DNA from: Verrucomicrobiota bacterium
Lineage (GTDB): Bacteria > Verrucomicrobiota > Verrucomicrobiia > Verrucomicrobiales > DEV007
Length of the DNA stretch: 49,211 bases
Assembly (NCBI GenBank): GCA_018970725.1
Contig: JAGWVU010000037.1
Span: forward strand, 1-49,211
Direction of reading: 5' to 3'
The position numbers and the translations under genes are program-made. This document shows positions 32,748 through 38,731 of this stretch, piece by piece. Below the pieces are notes generated by a model. The model was given only the letters and a program-made list of their open reading frames with translations, had not been told where the DNA came from and did not search any database. Every line of letters starts with the position of its first letter. Position 1 is the first letter of the stretch.

Positions 32748-34664
32748 TCAGTCGATGAATTGCAATTCGTTGGATACGAGCAAGACCTGAGCGAGCCCGG
32801 ACCATACGGCTGCCTCCCCTTCCCGTCCCTGCAGATACGCTTGGGCCGCGCGGGTTTCCCAATCGGCCGGATGCCGCTGGAAGAGGCGTCGGTAGCCGGC
32901 CTCGAGCCCTTCCTGGCGGATCCACGCCCCGAGAGCGTCCGACTGTTTGAGGATGAAAGGGGAATTCAGGGCGAAGAGTCCCTGCAAGGGGGTCATCGTC
33001 TCCGTCCGCCATGGACTGTGCGCCCCGGGATCCGGCACGTCGTGCAGCCGCAACATCGCGTCCATGTCCTGACGGTCGGAGGCCCCGTAAAGGGAACGCC
33101 TCACGTTGTCCGGGGATCCGACCGCCAAGGCCGGTCCTCCCATGGTCAAATCCAGCGTTCCGGCCCCCGCAAGCAGGGAATCCCGCCAGGCTTCCCAGTC
33201 GAGACGTCTCCGGGCTGCACGGGCCAGAAAGCGATTGGCGGGATCACGTGCCTCGGATCGGGGGGCAGAGGAACTCTGCCGCCAAGTGGCCGAGTTGAGG
33301 ATCTCCCGGTGCAACCACTTGATCGACCAGCCGTTCTCGACGAACCGGAGCGCCAGATCGTCCAATAGTTCCGGGTGGCTGGGAGGATCTCCCAGACGAC
33401 CGAATTCACTGGGGGTATCCACCAGTCCCCGCCCGAAATGCTGCTTCCAAACCCGGTTGACCATGACCCGCGCCGTCAGCGCCGAGGCTTCCCCGGTCAA
33501 GGCCCGCGCCAAATCCAACCGACCGCTCCCGCTCCCGAGACGACGCGGTTTTCCGTCCGGAAGCGGAAAAGCCGAGAGAAAGCGGCGTTCGACCACCGGC
33601 CCGAGGTCGTTCGGATTTCCCCGCTTTTGCAATTCCAAGTCACGCGCTATCCCCATCCGGTAATCGAGCTTGGTTCCGTGCGACTTGTCATTTGCCACCA
33701 CGTAAAGCGCGGCATCCTCCACAGCGTTGGCCATGGGCATATCGTAATGGGCGGTGCGGGCCTTGATTTCCCCGATCTGCTTTTGGAGCCCCGCCACCTG
33801 TTCCGCCAAATCCTTGGGTTTCCCCTTTTTGACCTCCGCGATCTTCTTCTCCAACGCGGCGACCTCCGCCCGCGCCTTGGCCACCGGGGCCCAAAGGGCG
33901 TCGTCCACGATGGGCCGCTCCGCCAGCTTGACCGAGGCGAACACTCCGGCCAGGGCGTAGTAGTCCTCCGTGGGAATGGGATCCGACTTGTGGTCGTGAC
34001 ACCGCGCACAGGCAATGGTGAGCCCGAGAAAGGTGCGTCCGATGGCATCGACGTGTTCCTCCCACTCGTCGGCCACCGTCGTCTTGATGATCTCGGGCGG
34101 GAGTTGCAGTTCCTTGAAATAGGTGGGACTCAACCCGAGAAAACCGAGGGCCACCCGGTCCCCGGGGCCACCATCCGGCAAAAGATCCGCCGCCAGTTGC
34201 CAGAGGATGAACCGATCGTAAGGAAAATCCCGGTTCAGGGCATCGACCACCCAATCCCGGTAAAGATAGGCGTATCGGGTCGACTCCAGCCAGTCCGGAC
34301 TCCGGTCCACATAGCGCGCCAGATCCAGCCAATGACGCCCCCACCGCTCGCCGTAATGCGGACTCGACAACAGGGCTTCGACCGTGGTGCCCTGGCCTCC
34401 CGTTCCCGGCGGCAATCCCGTGAGAGCGAAGGACAGGCGCCGCGCCAAGGTGCGCTCGTCCGCTTCCGGTGCCGGTTGCAATCCCTCCTTCTCCATCCGC
34501 GCCAGAACAAACCAGTCGATCCGGGTCCGGGGCCAGGAGGAATCCTGAACCGGCGGCAAGCCGGAACCGCGCAGGGGGCGCAACGACCAGAGAGGACCGT
34601 CTGCGGACCATCCCGAAGATAGGGTTGAGAAAAGAAGGAGGGCCAGGATCCAACCGCATTTCAC
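32748..34664 (-). CDS. DUF1549/DUF1553 domain secreted protein
   Basis: A 638-residue exported protein. The GTG at 34664 gives the signal peptide MKCGWILALLLFSTLSSGWS. DUF1549 (about 45-250) has RIDWFVLARMEKEGLQPAP, RRLSFALTGLPP, HYGERWGRHWLDLARY, PYDRFILWQLAADLLP and the heme-type CxxCH in CARCHDHKSDPIPTEDYYAL. A lysine-rich coiled coil (VAALEKKIAEVKKGKPKDLA) separates it from DUF1553 (about 380-620), with LARALTGEASALTARVMVNR, IKWLHREILNSATWRQSS and LDWEAWRDSLLAGAG. Many relatives begin with a separate cytochrome (PSCyt1) domain; here that domain is missing, leaving only the internal heme motif. It is the first gene of the pair with DUF1501 and diverges from the ion-channel gene (134 bp). 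Confidence 0.94.
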   Translation of the reverse strand: MKCGWILALLLFSTLSSGWSADGPLWSLRPLRGSGLPPVQDSSWPRTRIDWFVLARMEKEGLQPAPEADERTLARRLSFALTGLPPGTGGQGTTVEALLSSPHYGERWGRHWLDLARYVDRSPDWLESTRYAYLYRDWVVDALNRDFPYDRFILWQLAADLLPDGGPGDRVALGFLGLSPTYFKELQLPPEIIKTTVADEWEEHVDAIGRTFLGLTIACARCHDHKSDPIPTEDYYALAGVFASVKLAERPIVDDALWAPVAKARAEVAALEKKIAEVKKGKPKDLAEQVAGLQKQIGEIKARTAHYDMPMANAVEDAALYVVANDKSHGTKLDYRMGIARDLELQKRGNPNDLGPVVERRFLSAFPLPDGKPRRLGSGSGRLDLARALTGEASALTARVMVNRVWKQHFGRGLVDTPSEFGRLGDPPSHPELLDDLALRFVENGWSIKWLHREILNSATWRQSSSAPRSEARDPANRFLARAARRRLDWEAWRDSLLAGAGTLDLTMGGPALAVGSPDNVRRSLYGASDRQDMDAMLRLHDVPDPGAHSPWRTETMTPLQGLFALNSPFILKQSDALGAWIRQEGLEAGYRRLFQRHPADWETRAAQAYLQGREGEAAVWSGLAQVLLVSNELQFID

Positions 34665-34798
34665 AGTTTTCTATACCGGAAAATCGTTCACCGCCTTTCA
34701 TCGAATCCACCCGGCGCCCCGGAAACTTCCGGCTGAACTCCCGTTGACCCCGGACAGTTGCATCGCTAGGGTGACACGGATTTCATTCCCCGTTTCCC

Positions 34799-37294
34799 AT
34801 GATCCGCCCCCGGAAAACCGTGCTCCTCGGCATCGCTGCGCTTCTCGTCCTGGGCACGTTGTCCTGGGTGATCGGGGCGAAACTGAAACATGGAGGCCGC
34901 TTTGGGGCGAAGCGCGAGATCGAGGTGGCCCTGCTGGCCCGGTCCAAGGGGCATTTCACGGATCTGCACGAGATCTGCCTCCGCCTGCTTTTCGAGCAAC
35001 TGGATCGACAGGGCTTGAACGGAGGCGCCGGCCGCCTTGTGCTGCATACCTACGATTTGCGGACCCTGCAAGCAGGCTATGGCGACACCCCTCCCCACGA
35101 GGCCATCCTCAGGGAAAATCCGAATATATCGGTCATTCTGGACAACACCTGGGGCAGTGATCTCCAAAAGTCCCGGGAGGTCATCCGCAAGAAAGGCATC
35201 CCGGTGATCTCCCTCAACGCGGACCGGACCGCGGACTTCGGACCTTCCGTCCTGTTTCTCGGGAGCCAGAACATGGTGCCCTCCAAGATTGCCAGTTTCA
35301 TCGACCAAGCCCTCATGCGTAGGGGCGCCCCGGCGGTAGGGCCTTCCCCGGCCGATCCCTTCCAAAAGGATGCCCCGGCGGTGGGTCCTTCCCCGGCCGA
35401 TCCCTTCGCGCCCCGCCCCATGGTGCTGTTCCTCACGGAGGCGGGTTATGGATTGGACCCTTCCCGCACCGGTGATCCGGTCACTCTCTACGAAAGCGAG
35501 TTGGCCAAACGGAACATTCCCGTCGAAGCCCGGGTCTCCTTCGCGGAAGAGAAATACGAGGTCGCCGCCGAACAGCAACGGGTCACCGGGGAAGTGCTCC
35601 GCGCGCTTAAGGAGGCGGGCTCCCGTGAGGTGGTGGTCATCATCAACGCCCACAAACAGTGGGGCTCCAGATTGGTGGCCAAGTTCGAGGAATTCGCCTC
35701 CAGCAACCGGGACCGAAGCCTGCGGGTGATCGGTCATGATTCGATCTTCAACCAGGGAATTCACGACGGCGTGCGCGAGGCCGGGGCCGAAGACGAGACC
35801 ATGGGCTTCGAAATGGTGCTCATGAAGGCGCCCAATCCCGAGTTTTCCACCCACACCTTCGACCTTTACCGGAGTGTGGTGGATGCCCACGGAGGCGCGT
35901 TCGAGGATTACCCGAAGGAGGTCGCCTCCATCTTCATCCGTCGATGCGCGGTCGCTGCGGAACTTTTGCGCCATTCCCTGCAGGATTTCGACCTGCTCGA
36001 CCGTCAGGCCGAGGGAGCGGCCTGGAACGCGAAATCGAGAGTCGAGAAAGACCGTTCCCTACTCAGCGATCAGTTCGCCGGGCTCGTCGCCCCCTTTCCC
36101 CCGGCTCCCGGCGCCCCCCGTCAACCCACCGGAGCCCATGTGGAACTCGGCGCCCTCGGGCTGGTGCATTTCAACCGGGATGGCGAGGAGGACGGCAGCC
36201 ATTATTTCGAGTTGCACAGGCCGGGCAACCGCCCAATCGCCCACCTCAAACAACTCAACGCCCGCAACGAACTGATCCCCGCCCTGCAAATCGGCATCAA
36301 TGCGTTCCAAATCCGGCGGGTCGATGTCGAGCGCGGGGAATTCGATGCCGAGTTCATCTGTTCCACCACGATCGATGCCGCGCTCAAGAAAAAGGTCCTG
36401 CTCGATATGAGGAACCTCCGCAAGGAGGAAGAGCAGGAGGAACCGCCCCTCGAGGACAAGAGCGCCACCGATGACCCGCGGGGACGCCCCGGGCAGTATC
36501 CGATGCTCTCCGGGCTTCTCTCGATCCCGAACATGCGGACCGATGGTTCCGTGGCGCAGATTGGTCAAACCGACCGCAGCGTCGAGAATACGGAATACCG
36601 CGTCTACAAAGTGCGCGGCACCTTCGCGGCGGACCTCAACACGGTTCGCTACCCGTTCGACAGCCATCACATCGGCGTGGAACTGCAGGCGGCGGTGCCC
36701 GACGAATTGCTCACCCTGACCGCCCAACGCATTGAATCCACCGCGTTTGAGGAGAACCAGCGCGGCTGGGTGCTGAAATGGATTCACGGGCTGGTCGACA
36801 ACCGCGTGGCCAACGGTAATCCGCTGGCGGTGGCGGGCCAGCGGACGGAGACCCGCCAGTTCAAAGAGTTCGCGATCATGGTCGGTGTGAAGCGCAACCT
36901 GCTCCAACCCATGTTGGTGGTCATGCTGCCCCTCGTCTTGCTGGGCATGGCGGCCATCGGCATCATGTATCTCGGCGAGAAGGAAACGATGGGCAAATCA
37001 CCCAGTGAACTCGCCATGGGCGTGGTCCTTGCCGTCGTCGCCTATTCCATTTCCTACGCGGACGTGGTCCCCCGGAGCGGGGGCGGCACCCACTCCGATC
37101 TGCTCTATCTCATCACCACCCTGATGTGCATGGGAAATTTCGGGGCCGTTCTCCTTTTCGGAGAGATGGGAAATCCCAAGACCCGCCACGACATCGTGGA
37201 CCGCTGGCGCTTCCGTTATGCCTTGGGAGTCACGGTCTTTTACTTCATCTTCGTGCTCTATTGGGGAACCAGCAGCGAACTCTGGCCCGTCTGA
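34799..37294 (+). CDS. Fusion of a type I periplasmic binding protein domain with a pentameric ligand-gated ion channel
   Basis: An 831-residue membrane protein in four parts. (1) Signal-anchor helix, 8-27. (2) Type I periplasmic-binding-protein-like domain, about 38-405: VALLARSKGHFT, KGIPVISLNADRT, EVVVIINAHKQWGSRLV and VIGHDSIFNQGIHDGVREAG. (3) Ligand-binding beta sandwich of Cys-loop-type channels, about 448-695: LQIGINAFQIRRVDVERGEF, YRVYKVRGTFAADLNTV and the Pro-loop YPFDSHHIGVEL (618-629), without the two Cys of animal receptors. (4) Four transmembrane helices: M1 702-725, M2 about 733-757, M3 767-788, M4 806-823. M2 ends VVAYSISYADVVPR, close to ELIC; counting back from P758 (23'), pore residues are E737 (2'), G741 (6'), L744 (9'), A748 (13') and I751 (16'). 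The 9' leucine gate is kept and the 2' acid favours cations. Channel activity and ligand are inferred. Confidence 0.9.
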   Translation: MIRPRKTVLLGIAALLVLGTLSWVIGAKLKHGGRFGAKREIEVALLARSKGHFTDLHEICLRLLFEQLDRQGLNGGAGRLVLHTYDLRTLQAGYGDTPPHEAILRENPNISVILDNTWGSDLQKSREVIRKKGIPVISLNADRTADFGPSVLFLGSQNMVPSKIASFIDQALMRRGAPAVGPSPADPFQKDAPAVGPSPADPFAPRPMVLFLTEAGYGLDPSRTGDPVTLYESELAKRNIPVEARVSFAEEKYEVAAEQQRVTGEVLRALKEAGSREVVVIINAHKQWGSRLVAKFEEFASSNRDRSLRVIGHDSIFNQGIHDGVREAGAEDETMGFEMVLMKAPNPEFSTHTFDLYRSVVDAHGGAFEDYPKEVASIFIRRCAVAAELLRHSLQDFDLLDRQAEGAAWNAKSRVEKDRSLLSDQFAGLVAPFPPAPGAPRQPTGAHVELGALGLVHFNRDGEEDGSHYFELHRPGNRPIAHLKQLNARNELIPALQIGINAFQIRRVDVERGEFDAEFICSTTIDAALKKKVLLDMRNLRKEEEQEEPPLEDKSATDDPRGRPGQYPMLSGLLSIPNMRTDGSVAQIGQTDRSVENTEYRVYKVRGTFAADLNTVRYPFDSHHIGVELQAAVPDELLTLTAQRIESTAFEENQRGWVLKWIHGLVDNRVANGNPLAVAGQRTETRQFKEFAIMVGVKRNLLQPMLVVMLPLVLLGMAAIGIMYLGEKETMGKSPSELAMGVVLAVVAYSISYADVVPRSGGGTHSDLLYLITTLMCMGNFGAVLLFGEMGNPKTRHDIVDRWRFRYALGVTVFYFIFVLYWGTSSELWPV
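35327..35407 (+). repeat. In-frame tandem duplication inside the binding-protein domain
   Basis: Two 36-bp copies (35327-35362 and 35372-35407) differ at two positions and are offset by 45 bp, so 15 residues. Each encodes APAVGPSPADPF (residues 177-188 and 192-203) in a Pro-rich loop between two strands of the binding-protein domain. Confidence 0.92.
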
Positions 37295-37301
37295 GACCCT
37301 G

Positions 37302-38651
37302 TCAGCCTCCGAAGAGCGCCCGCTCCAACAACCCTTCTCCCGTTTCCCCCACCCCGAGGAACTGGGCCTTGCCGGGCAGACCTCCGGCGGCCGCGGAAAA
37401 ATTCAAAGGCATGATCCCGGGGAGGCCCGGCCTGAAAAGCTGATCGTTCCGACGCAGCCGGTCGAGAATCTCCGCCTCGCTTTCGCCTTGGTGCAAATTG
37501 ACGTTCCGCAAGGTCCATCGCGCCCCGGGACAAAGGCTGCGCACCAGAATGGAGGGATAGGTGGCGGCGGTCACCCTCGCGTTGATCTCACTGACAAAGA
37601 CTTCGAGCCCGTCCGATCCCCCCCGTTCCACCACGAGGAAATCCAGCCCCCCGAAACCGCGATAACCCTGCGCATGCAACCACCGGATGGAGGCCACCGC
37701 CTGTTCGAACAACATCTCCCGCAAGCGCGGCATGCTCCCCATGTAGGGTGGCGGGGATTGGTTCCCCTCATGCAAAATCCGACCACTCAGCAATTGTTCG
37801 GTGATGTCGAACACCGTTCCCCCGTCTTCACCGAGAAAGAATTGCACGCTCGGACTCCGCGTCTCCACGATCCCGCGCTCCCCAGGCTGGAGCCAGCCTT
37901 GGACCAGGCAGGGGCCCTCCGTGAAGAAGTATTCCGGAAGGGTCACCTCACGATCCCCGACGATGCTCAGCTTCCTGAGACCGATTCCCGACGCCCCCAT
38001 TTGCGACTTCACCACCGCGTGGGTGAACCCGGCACCTCCCAAAGTATCGAGACAACCGCGAACCGCCCCCGGCGACTCCGCCAGAACCGACGGAATGACT
38101 GGCCAACCCGCGTCCCGGAGATGCTCGAAAATCAGGAGCTTGTTGTTTCCCCGCCGGCTGCCTTCGGGCGTGGTGGTCACCGGGAGATCCAGTCGTCCCG
38201 CGATTTGCACCAACTCCGCATCGGTGACGAACCCGTCCACCCAACGGTTCTCCCGCCCGCCGGTCCGCTGCAAATTCTCCTGCAACGCCGCTTCCAAGCG
38301 CCGCACCGAAGGACTCCCTTCCCCGGAGGCAAGCCGTGGATAGTCGTCGGCCGACATCACGAGGACCTCGGGAAGAGTCAGTCCGAGATCCTCGGAAAAG
38401 TAACGGCACAGGGCCGCCGAGGGCGCCTCTTCCAAAACCAGCAGGTTTTGCGCTCCCCGGTAGAGCAGATTCAAAGCGGGGATGAAGCGCCCCCCATACG
38501 AGCGGGAGGGACCGACCACTTCGGCCAAGGCCGCGGTCTTCGCGTGGTTCTCATAGAAAATCTCGTAGAGATTGGCGAAAAAGACGACCTGACGTCCCCA
38601 AAAAGCGGGCATCCGGTCGGTGCGGTCGGAGATCTCCAAGGCGGATGTCAT
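37302..38651 (-). CDS. ATP-grasp ligase-like protein
   Basis: A 449-residue protein; ATG 38651 (MTSALEISDRTDRMP) is chosen, a TTG at 38678 would add nine residues. The N-terminal 150 residues look like a pre-ATP-grasp domain. The ATP-grasp core follows: GNNKLLIFEHLRDAGWPVIP, the ATP-binding lysine in AVVKSQMGASGIGL, the strand GPCLVQGWLQPGERG, then GFGGLDFLVVE and the metal-binding VSEINARVTAATYP. Such enzymes couple a carboxylate to an amine or thiol via an acyl phosphate; the overall layout recalls peptide or amino-acid ligases of secondary metabolism. It ends 7 bp from the channel gene (convergent) and begins 80 bp after the EamA transporter gene on the same strand. Substrate unknown; a glutathione-synthetase-like or carboxylase-like role is possible. 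Confidence 0.82.
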   Translation of the reverse strand: MTSALEISDRTDRMPAFWGRQVVFFANLYEIFYENHAKTAALAEVVGPSRSYGGRFIPALNLLYRGAQNLLVLEEAPSAALCRYFSEDLGLTLPEVLVMSADDYPRLASGEGSPSVRRLEAALQENLQRTGGRENRWVDGFVTDAELVQIAGRLDLPVTTTPEGSRRGNNKLLIFEHLRDAGWPVIPSVLAESPGAVRGCLDTLGGAGFTHAVVKSQMGASGIGLRKLSIVGDREVTLPEYFFTEGPCLVQGWLQPGERGIVETRSPSVQFFLGEDGGTVFDITEQLLSGRILHEGNQSPPPYMGSMPRLREMLFEQAVASIRWLHAQGYRGFGGLDFLVVERGGSDGLEVFVSEINARVTAATYPSILVRSLCPGARWTLRNVNLHQGESEAEILDRLRRNDQLFRPGLPGIMPLNFSAAAGGLPGKAQFLGVGETGEGLLERALFGG

Positions 38652-38731
38652 GAGCGCCGGCGAACTGGGGCACCCCAAGAATCCGTGACCTTTCTTGATT
38701 GTAAAGAACCAATCGTGATTTCAAAGGATGG

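Follow-up and report, generated by a model that had tools for sequence, protein, structure and literature searches.

A putative fusion of a type I periplasmic-binding-protein domain to a pentameric ligand-gated channel in Verrucomicrobiota

Known fusions and the present locus

N-terminal fusions of type I periplasmic-binding-protein (PBP-I) domains to pentameric ligand-gated ion channels (pLGICs) were described from sequence in two alphaproteobacteria by Tasneem et al. (2004/5; PMC549065), in an account that also sets out Cache/MCP-N fusions of pLGICs, and gene neighbourhoods in which pLGICs lie with PBP-II or Cache genes. As of 2016, domain fusions to pLGICs were evidenced at the genome level alone, according to PMC4795631, and a 2025 source presents DeCLIC as the sole pLGIC with an N-terminal domain to have been even partly characterized (PMC12664993; also PMC9897478). 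Here we describe a gene at positions 34799-37294 of the forward strand of a 49,211-nucleotide stretch of DNA from a Verrucomicrobiota bacterium (contig JAGWVU010000037.1 of assembly GCA_018970725.1, positions 1 to 49,211; hereafter the window), the 831-residue product of which probably joins a PBP-I domain to a pLGIC homologue.

As far as the open-licence literature goes, this kind of protein is already known and uncharacterized, and the window gene is a diverged variant of it; in that literature we found no study of a PBP-I-fused pLGIC beyond Tasneem et al., and none linking pLGICs with Verrucomicrobia. Compared by description, the PBP-I/ART-LGIC fusions of Magnetospirillum magnetotacticum and Bradyrhizobium japonicum (PMC549065) have the same order of parts, namely PBP-I, ligand-binding domain (LBD) and four-helix domain, whereas the window protein belongs to Verrucomicrobiota and is too diverged in both halves for Pfam. 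The novelty of the window protein lies in its divergence and in an unusual pore entrance, with Glu at the 2' position and no Arg at 0'. DeCLIC (PDB 6v4a, 9ftg) also carries a large domain in the periplasm at the N-terminus of a pLGIC, built of jelly-roll lobes with calcium sites (PMC12664993), whereas the corresponding domain of the window protein is probably an alpha/beta flytrap. A looser analogy can be drawn with animal ionotropic and metabotropic glutamate receptors, in which the extracellular part of the receptor likewise includes a domain resembling type I binding proteins; as the pore of the window protein is of pLGIC type, rather than an ionotropic glutamate receptor pore or seven-transmembrane domain, membership of the ionotropic glutamate receptor family is not favoured. 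ELIC and GLIC have a Pro-loop without cysteines, four helices, a short M3-M4 loop and hydrophobic residues at 9' and 16', all of which are shared by the window protein; it differs in carrying an N-terminal domain, which these channels lack, as well as an insert in the extracellular domain (ECD), Glu at 2' and no Arg at 0'.

A conserved gene with a channel-like C-terminal half

The open reading frame (ORF) starts with ATG and runs for 831 codons without an internal stop. Among 57 genomes searched (own, genus, family and order), the protein matched three, its own and both others of the genus, in which the orthologues are 84% and 80% identical and 823 amino acids (aa) long; a pattern-based contig scan returned two loci, both in these two orthologue-bearing genomes. 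The overall ratio of nonsynonymous to synonymous substitution rates (dN/dS) among the three species is 0.10-0.11. By region, and with some dS values exceeding 1, the pore domain evolves slowest (0.04-0.05), the ECD has values of 0.07-0.10, and the N-terminal domain spans 0.05-0.16. Because the ORF is intact in the three species searched within the genus and is under purifying selection (dN/dS of approximately 0.1), we regard it, on sequence grounds, as a single gene rather than a joining artefact, and the 831-residue protein reported by the first-pass annotation stands.

The C-terminal half is supported as a pLGIC homologue, from the Pro-loop to M4, because profile searches agree in both directions and none of the seven superfamily-conserved residues is missing. 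A 12-protein profile built from Verrucomicrobiota pLGICs, from 11 genomes with matches over the PF02931 cut-off, matches residues 604-818 with a domain E-value of 5e-9, the best of 2000 shuffles reaching 0.32 (2548 targets including shuffles). This profile was derived from one of 15 proteins by dropping L009, as it had been found via the window profile itself, and L023 and L024, as both fall below the Pfam cut-off; with these three retained, the E-value is 4.6e-12. When 3000 segment-preserving shuffles were used, in which helices and loops are kept apart, the same 604-818 match scored 8e-10 (best shuffle 0.39), and the transmembrane domain (TMD) alone 7e-6 (best shuffle 0.07). In the reverse direction, a C-terminal window profile returned two further matches among 387 genomes of the phylum, L005 (E 6.5e-6) and L006 (E 3.4e-4), and a full-length profile returned L009 (2.1e-8), L010 (3.2e-7) and L011 (0.0066) among 384 genomes of the class. 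L010 (genome G273) is a gene scoring 89 bits for PF02931; judged by eye, L006 resembles gyrase A and L011 a VWA protein, and both are taken as chance matches. Elsewhere, a scan of viral contigs found nothing, as did tblastn of plasmid sequences when either the window protein or its sister fusion L058 (below) was the query, while a short pLGIC used as query found one site on a Legionella adelaidensis plasmid.

Hydropathy, with overlapping windows merged, delineates hydrophobic segments at approximately residues 4-30, 699-728, 734-759, 767-790 and 805-826. The first is an N-terminal membrane anchor or signal peptide (34808..34888, + strand, as for all features of the gene; hydropathy peak 2.34), which evolves fast; the remainder, together with alignment, define M1 (36893..36982, with pre-M1 R699 and kink P711), M2 (36998..37075), M3 (37097..37168) and M4 (37211..37276). 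The M3-M4 loop, at approximately 791-804, is short by hydropathy, as in bacterial-type four-helix pLGICs. Upstream of M1, the extracellular beta-sandwich is placed at residues ~494-698 (36278..36892) on the basis of its alignment with short pLGICs and L058, and is weak alone; within it lie the Pro-loop signature YPFD (618-621; 36650..36661), which conforms to the F/YPxD signature of PMC4795631, and an acidic insert (540-565; 36416..36493) that is present in all three orthologues, by their alignment, and mostly absent in L058. The seven superfamily-conserved residues, as set out in Table 1 of PMC4795631, are Y618, P619, D621, W657, R699, P711 and P758. Counting the pore face from P758 as 23' gives P735 at 0', E737 at 2', G741 at 6', L744 at 9', A748 at 13', I751 at 16' and D755 at 20', and the 2', 9', 13', 16' and 20' residues are identical in all three orthologues. 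The two acidic rings, E2' and D20', suggest a preference for cations.

What the first-pass annotation had seen in this half is confirmed, including its channel-like character with four hydrophobic helices, a Pro-loop within 618-629, Leu at 9' and Glu at 2' counted from P758, and the acidic insert; its interpretation of the protein as a whole is partly supported, and it made no mention of the PBP-I/pLGIC fusions published in 2004/5. The searches that it had proposed against channel families were divided, in that the Verrucomicrobiota pLGIC profile matches (E 5e-9), and the Pfam channel families do not.

The N-terminal half and related fusions

The N-terminal half is probably a PBP-I domain, spanning residues ~40-485 (34916..36253) with boundaries that are approximate. 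In hhalign comparisons with 30 Peripla_BP_4 proteins this half scored 30.3, against 29.0 for the best of 400 column shuffles and 16.7 for the channel half. A Foldseek search with an AlphaFold2 model of residues 37-490 yielded 814 rows, none with an E-value below 0.001; among its top 50, type I binding proteins, LacI-type regulators and flytrap-type receptors together make up 32, two of which (6hb0) are placed there on grounds other than their title. The full-length model likewise gave no row under 0.001, its top rows being a substrate-binding protein (0.0074) and DeCLIC (0.026). At the low confidence of these models such matches are hints, and the absence of a family from the structure lists does not exclude it. 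No PBP-II match was seen in Pfam scans of the window protein. The first-pass annotation had placed a binding-protein-like domain at about 38-405; the fold is probable, with moderate support, whereas the end is better set at ~485, as the channel part aligns from ~494-498, and L058 from 498. Among residues invariant in the three orthologues, W118, N140, D142, R143, N283, W288 and D314 are candidates for the cleft, guesses based on likely strand ends. A proline-rich insert at residues 173-206 (35315..35416), probably lying between the two lobes, is, like the N-terminal anchor, fast-evolving, with 38-42% interspecies identity. This insert contains a 36-nt direct repeat (35327..35362 and 35372..35407; copies 94% identical), which doubles a 12-residue Pro-rich motif.

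A clearer fusion, L058 (L058:217-2556, - strand; G001:C99), occurs in another genome of the genus, where a Peripla_BP_6 search and a pLGIC search converge on one 790-aa frame (780 aa from the first ATG). It matches Peripla_BP_6 with an E-value of 5e-16 (59.7 bits, cut-off 31.7), and in a PDB search this single chain matched both ELIC (3.7e-5) and, at 1.2e-7, 3hut, which is a putative component of a branched-chain amino-acid transporter. Its channel half aligns with window residues 498-778 at 24% identity (E 9e-7 in one-subject BLAST; hhalign 91%). Of the combination of PBP-I, LBD and four transmembrane helices in one chain, the window protein has the channel part and probably the PBP-I part, and L058 has both. 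The two share their architecture, and they differ in that the L058 binding domain is a clear Peripla_BP_6, whereas that of the window protein is sub-cut-off; we take L058 to support the fused architecture. Of the 22 other channel halves in a tree, that of L058 is the nearest to the channel half of the window protein, and the two group together weakly (82/66, long branches), in a grouping from which a common origin of the two fusions cannot be told. The gene lies near SecA-like, HlyD-like and GFO/IDH/MocA oxidoreductase genes.

L058 also bears on the sensitivity of the Pfam models. There is no PF02931 or PF02932 match to the window protein, and none to PF02931 anywhere in its genome, G000; the channel half of L058 also misses both models yet matches ELIC at 3.7e-5, so that these models are insensitive here, and a Pfam match is best treated as a detection aid rather than a defining trait. 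As pLGICs missed by the Pfam models exist, Pfam-based counts of bacterial pLGICs may be too low.

Across the family, 17 of 74 genomes contain a pLGIC by profile, and frames longer than 700 aa are confined to the three window orthologues and L058. In the wider phylum the figure is 11 of 259, with the window gene and a 676-aa gene of genome G279 as the long frames, the latter being itself part of the profile used. This pLGIC-like gene (for which independent support amounts to E 6.5e-6 with the C-terminal window profile, 1.3e-5 with the 15-protein profile and 0.019 with the 12-protein profile) has extra N-terminal hydrophobic segments by eye and no Pfam match, and a Peripla_BP_5 gene (E 2.6e-91) starts 12 bases after it. 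Perhaps, then, the parts of the receptor occur in G279 as neighbouring genes, a split form of the fusion. The row, on one strand at L026:1543-9463, comprises patatin-like, pLGIC-like, Peripla_BP_5 and RoxA-like cytochrome c genes; class 3 lipase and PAAR genes lie nearby. A pLGIC of plain architecture, in a 357-aa frame, is present in the window's own genome (G000:C56:57189-58127; L034, L103), and close relatives of this short gene occur in both sister genomes, so that each of the three genomes of the genus has one.

Proposed gating, alternatives and surroundings

We propose, with a probability of roughly 0.6, that the gene encodes a subunit of a homo-oligomeric, presumably pentameric, inner-membrane channel, in which closure of the flytrap domain around a solute opens a cation-favouring pore. 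The most likely mechanism, modelled on those of pLGICs and of flytrap receptors, is as follows. The N-terminal anchor would hold the two-lobed type I binding-protein domain in the periplasm, where it would sit above the pLGIC beta-sandwich and the four-helix pore domain. A periplasmic solute would close the lobes, which in turn would move the beta-sandwich beneath them; from there the change would reach the pore through the D621-R699 pair (Pro-loop and pre-M1) and through P758 in the M2-M3 loop. Once open, the pore would be lined by E737 (2'), L744 (the 9' gate), I751 (16') and D755 (20'), and should favour cations. If the binding domain does gate the pore, then the protein would offer a natural route by which a solute sensor may be placed on a pLGIC, and would provide a test of coupling between a flytrap and Cys-loop gating. 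More tentative is the fuller proposal that the agonist site has moved from the beta-sandwich to the flytrap, giving glutamate-receptor-like gating of a cation pore with Glu 2' and Asp 20' rings and no 0' Arg, in a genus that also has a plain pLGIC and, in L058, a further fusion whose binding domain would be of another type.

Several observations weigh against a receptor-channel of this kind. The Pfam and NCBIfam libraries and a single-sequence PDB search (phmmer) gave no channel-family match, and the PDB profile search, in which DeCLIC is the only pLGIC, ranks it weakly (E 0.83, 1.2) and below three unrelated chains. The ECD alone is not significant with the 12-protein profile (E 0.45, best shuffle 0.67), nor with the 15-protein profile (E 0.041, best shuffle 0.16). 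The pLGIC match is therefore carried by the Pro-loop to M4, and the beta-sandwich is too diverged to score alone; as the ECD has no significant score of its own, the placement of the first half of the sandwich (494-600) relies on alignment to L058 and other pLGICs. The Peripla_BP_6 match reaches E 0.041 and 14 bits (cut-off 31.7), and occurs in two of the three orthologues; the hhalign score of the N-terminal half exceeds the 400 shuffles narrowly, and a profile of 20 Peripla_BP_6 proteins gave no match (hhalign 21.0, best of 100 shuffles 27.9). As for L058, its N-terminal half and that of the window protein are not alignable with support, and the full-length window profile scores it at 0.0086, below the chance matches L011 (0.0016) and L006 (0.0022), both of which had been picked from hundreds of genomes by that kind of window profile. 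The AlphaFold2 models are poor (mean predicted local distance difference test score, pLDDT, 35 at full length and 40 for residues 37-490, with block means of 51-76 over residues 237-316), probably due to alignments of three close orthologues alone. In favour of the fusion, a VIA-align search with the full model lists 50 rows of which 13 are pLGICs, matched mostly over residues 700-829, and 33 bear titles of binding proteins or flytrap-type receptors, the titles of 7ylt, 8z0g, 3qi7 and 4jb0 being silent; the best pLGIC row is a serotonin receptor (Z 9.8, root-mean-square deviation (rmsd) 3.2, 119 residues), and the DeCLIC TMD matches the low-confidence model over 118 residues with Z 9.1 (rmsd 3.2, 20% identity). 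The TMD Z values (8.6-9.8), however, lie within the range helical models reach without kinship. A last point against the reading is that the 0' basic residue is replaced by P735 in all three orthologues. According to PMC4795631, a basic residue at M2 0' is conserved in 79% of pLGICs and Leu at 9' in 75%, so that neither is universal; the 9' Leu is present here (L744).

Unlikely, yet deserving of serious consideration, is the alternative that the fusion is as described and the binding-protein domain concentrates solute or modulates the channel, with the agonist acting at the usual site between pLGIC ECDs. This matches the proposal of Tasneem et al. (PMC549065) that PBP-I domains in such fusions pre-concentrate or sense, whereupon the channel LBD binds. 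It is also consistent with the N-terminal domain of DeCLIC, which appears to speed both activation and deactivation (PMC12664993), and with conservation of the ECD that is at least equal to that of the N-terminal domain.

We consider it improbable that the N-terminal half is another alpha/beta periplasmic domain that does not bind small solutes. The lack of any Pfam match over cut-off would fit such a domain, as would the lack of a significant N-terminal relative among the 387 phylum genomes, where the best candidate (E 0.0138) lies in a stop-containing frame and is regarded as chance. In the VIA-align search with the 37-490 model, dehydroquinate synthases account for six of the 50 best rows, at Z values (9.3-9.7) similar to those of the rest. 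The other 44 rows belong to type I binding proteins or receptors of flytrap type (for 7ylt and 4jb0 the title does not say so) and reach Z 10.5 over 124-131 residues; the best of these aligns 124 residues, approximately one lobe, at rmsd 2.6 in a model of low pLDDT. Their number argues for a binding-protein fold, as do the Peripla_BP_6 domain over cut-off at the equivalent place in L058, and the Peripla_BP_5 gene directly behind the pLGIC-like gene of G279.

The chance is small that the protein is a sensor that has lost conduction, its pLGIC part serving to relay a conformational change or to keep the pentamer assembled while passing no ions. An odd pore entrance, with Pro at 0', Glu at 2' and an M1-M2 loop that exceeds that of the aligned short pLGICs by two residues, speaks for such a role; the slow evolution of the pore domain, the identity of its facing residues across orthologues and the lack of a cytoplasmic output domain speak for the conducting channel proposed above. 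There is a negligible likelihood that two genes were fused by a frame or assembly error, the outcome that the first-pass annotation held would undo its reading, or that the gene is in decay, as the shared frame and near-equal lengths (831, 823 and 823) in three genomes, together with dN/dS of approximately 0.1, exclude this as far as sequence allows, and no point in its favour was found.

The gene is flanked on the opposite strand by a gene for a PSD1/PSCyt2 protein upstream, and by one without a Pfam match downstream; membership of an operon is not favoured, as the genes on both sides lie on the other strand. The upstream synteny is kept in genome G002 and not in G001. A scan of 34600-37500 for promoters and terminators was uninformative, with one promoter-like site (0.5 expected) and three terminator-like sites (2.9 expected). 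The convergent downstream gene encodes 458 aa (37302-38678, - strand), and genes of similar size lie at the equivalent place in both sister genomes, where the DNA is alignable.

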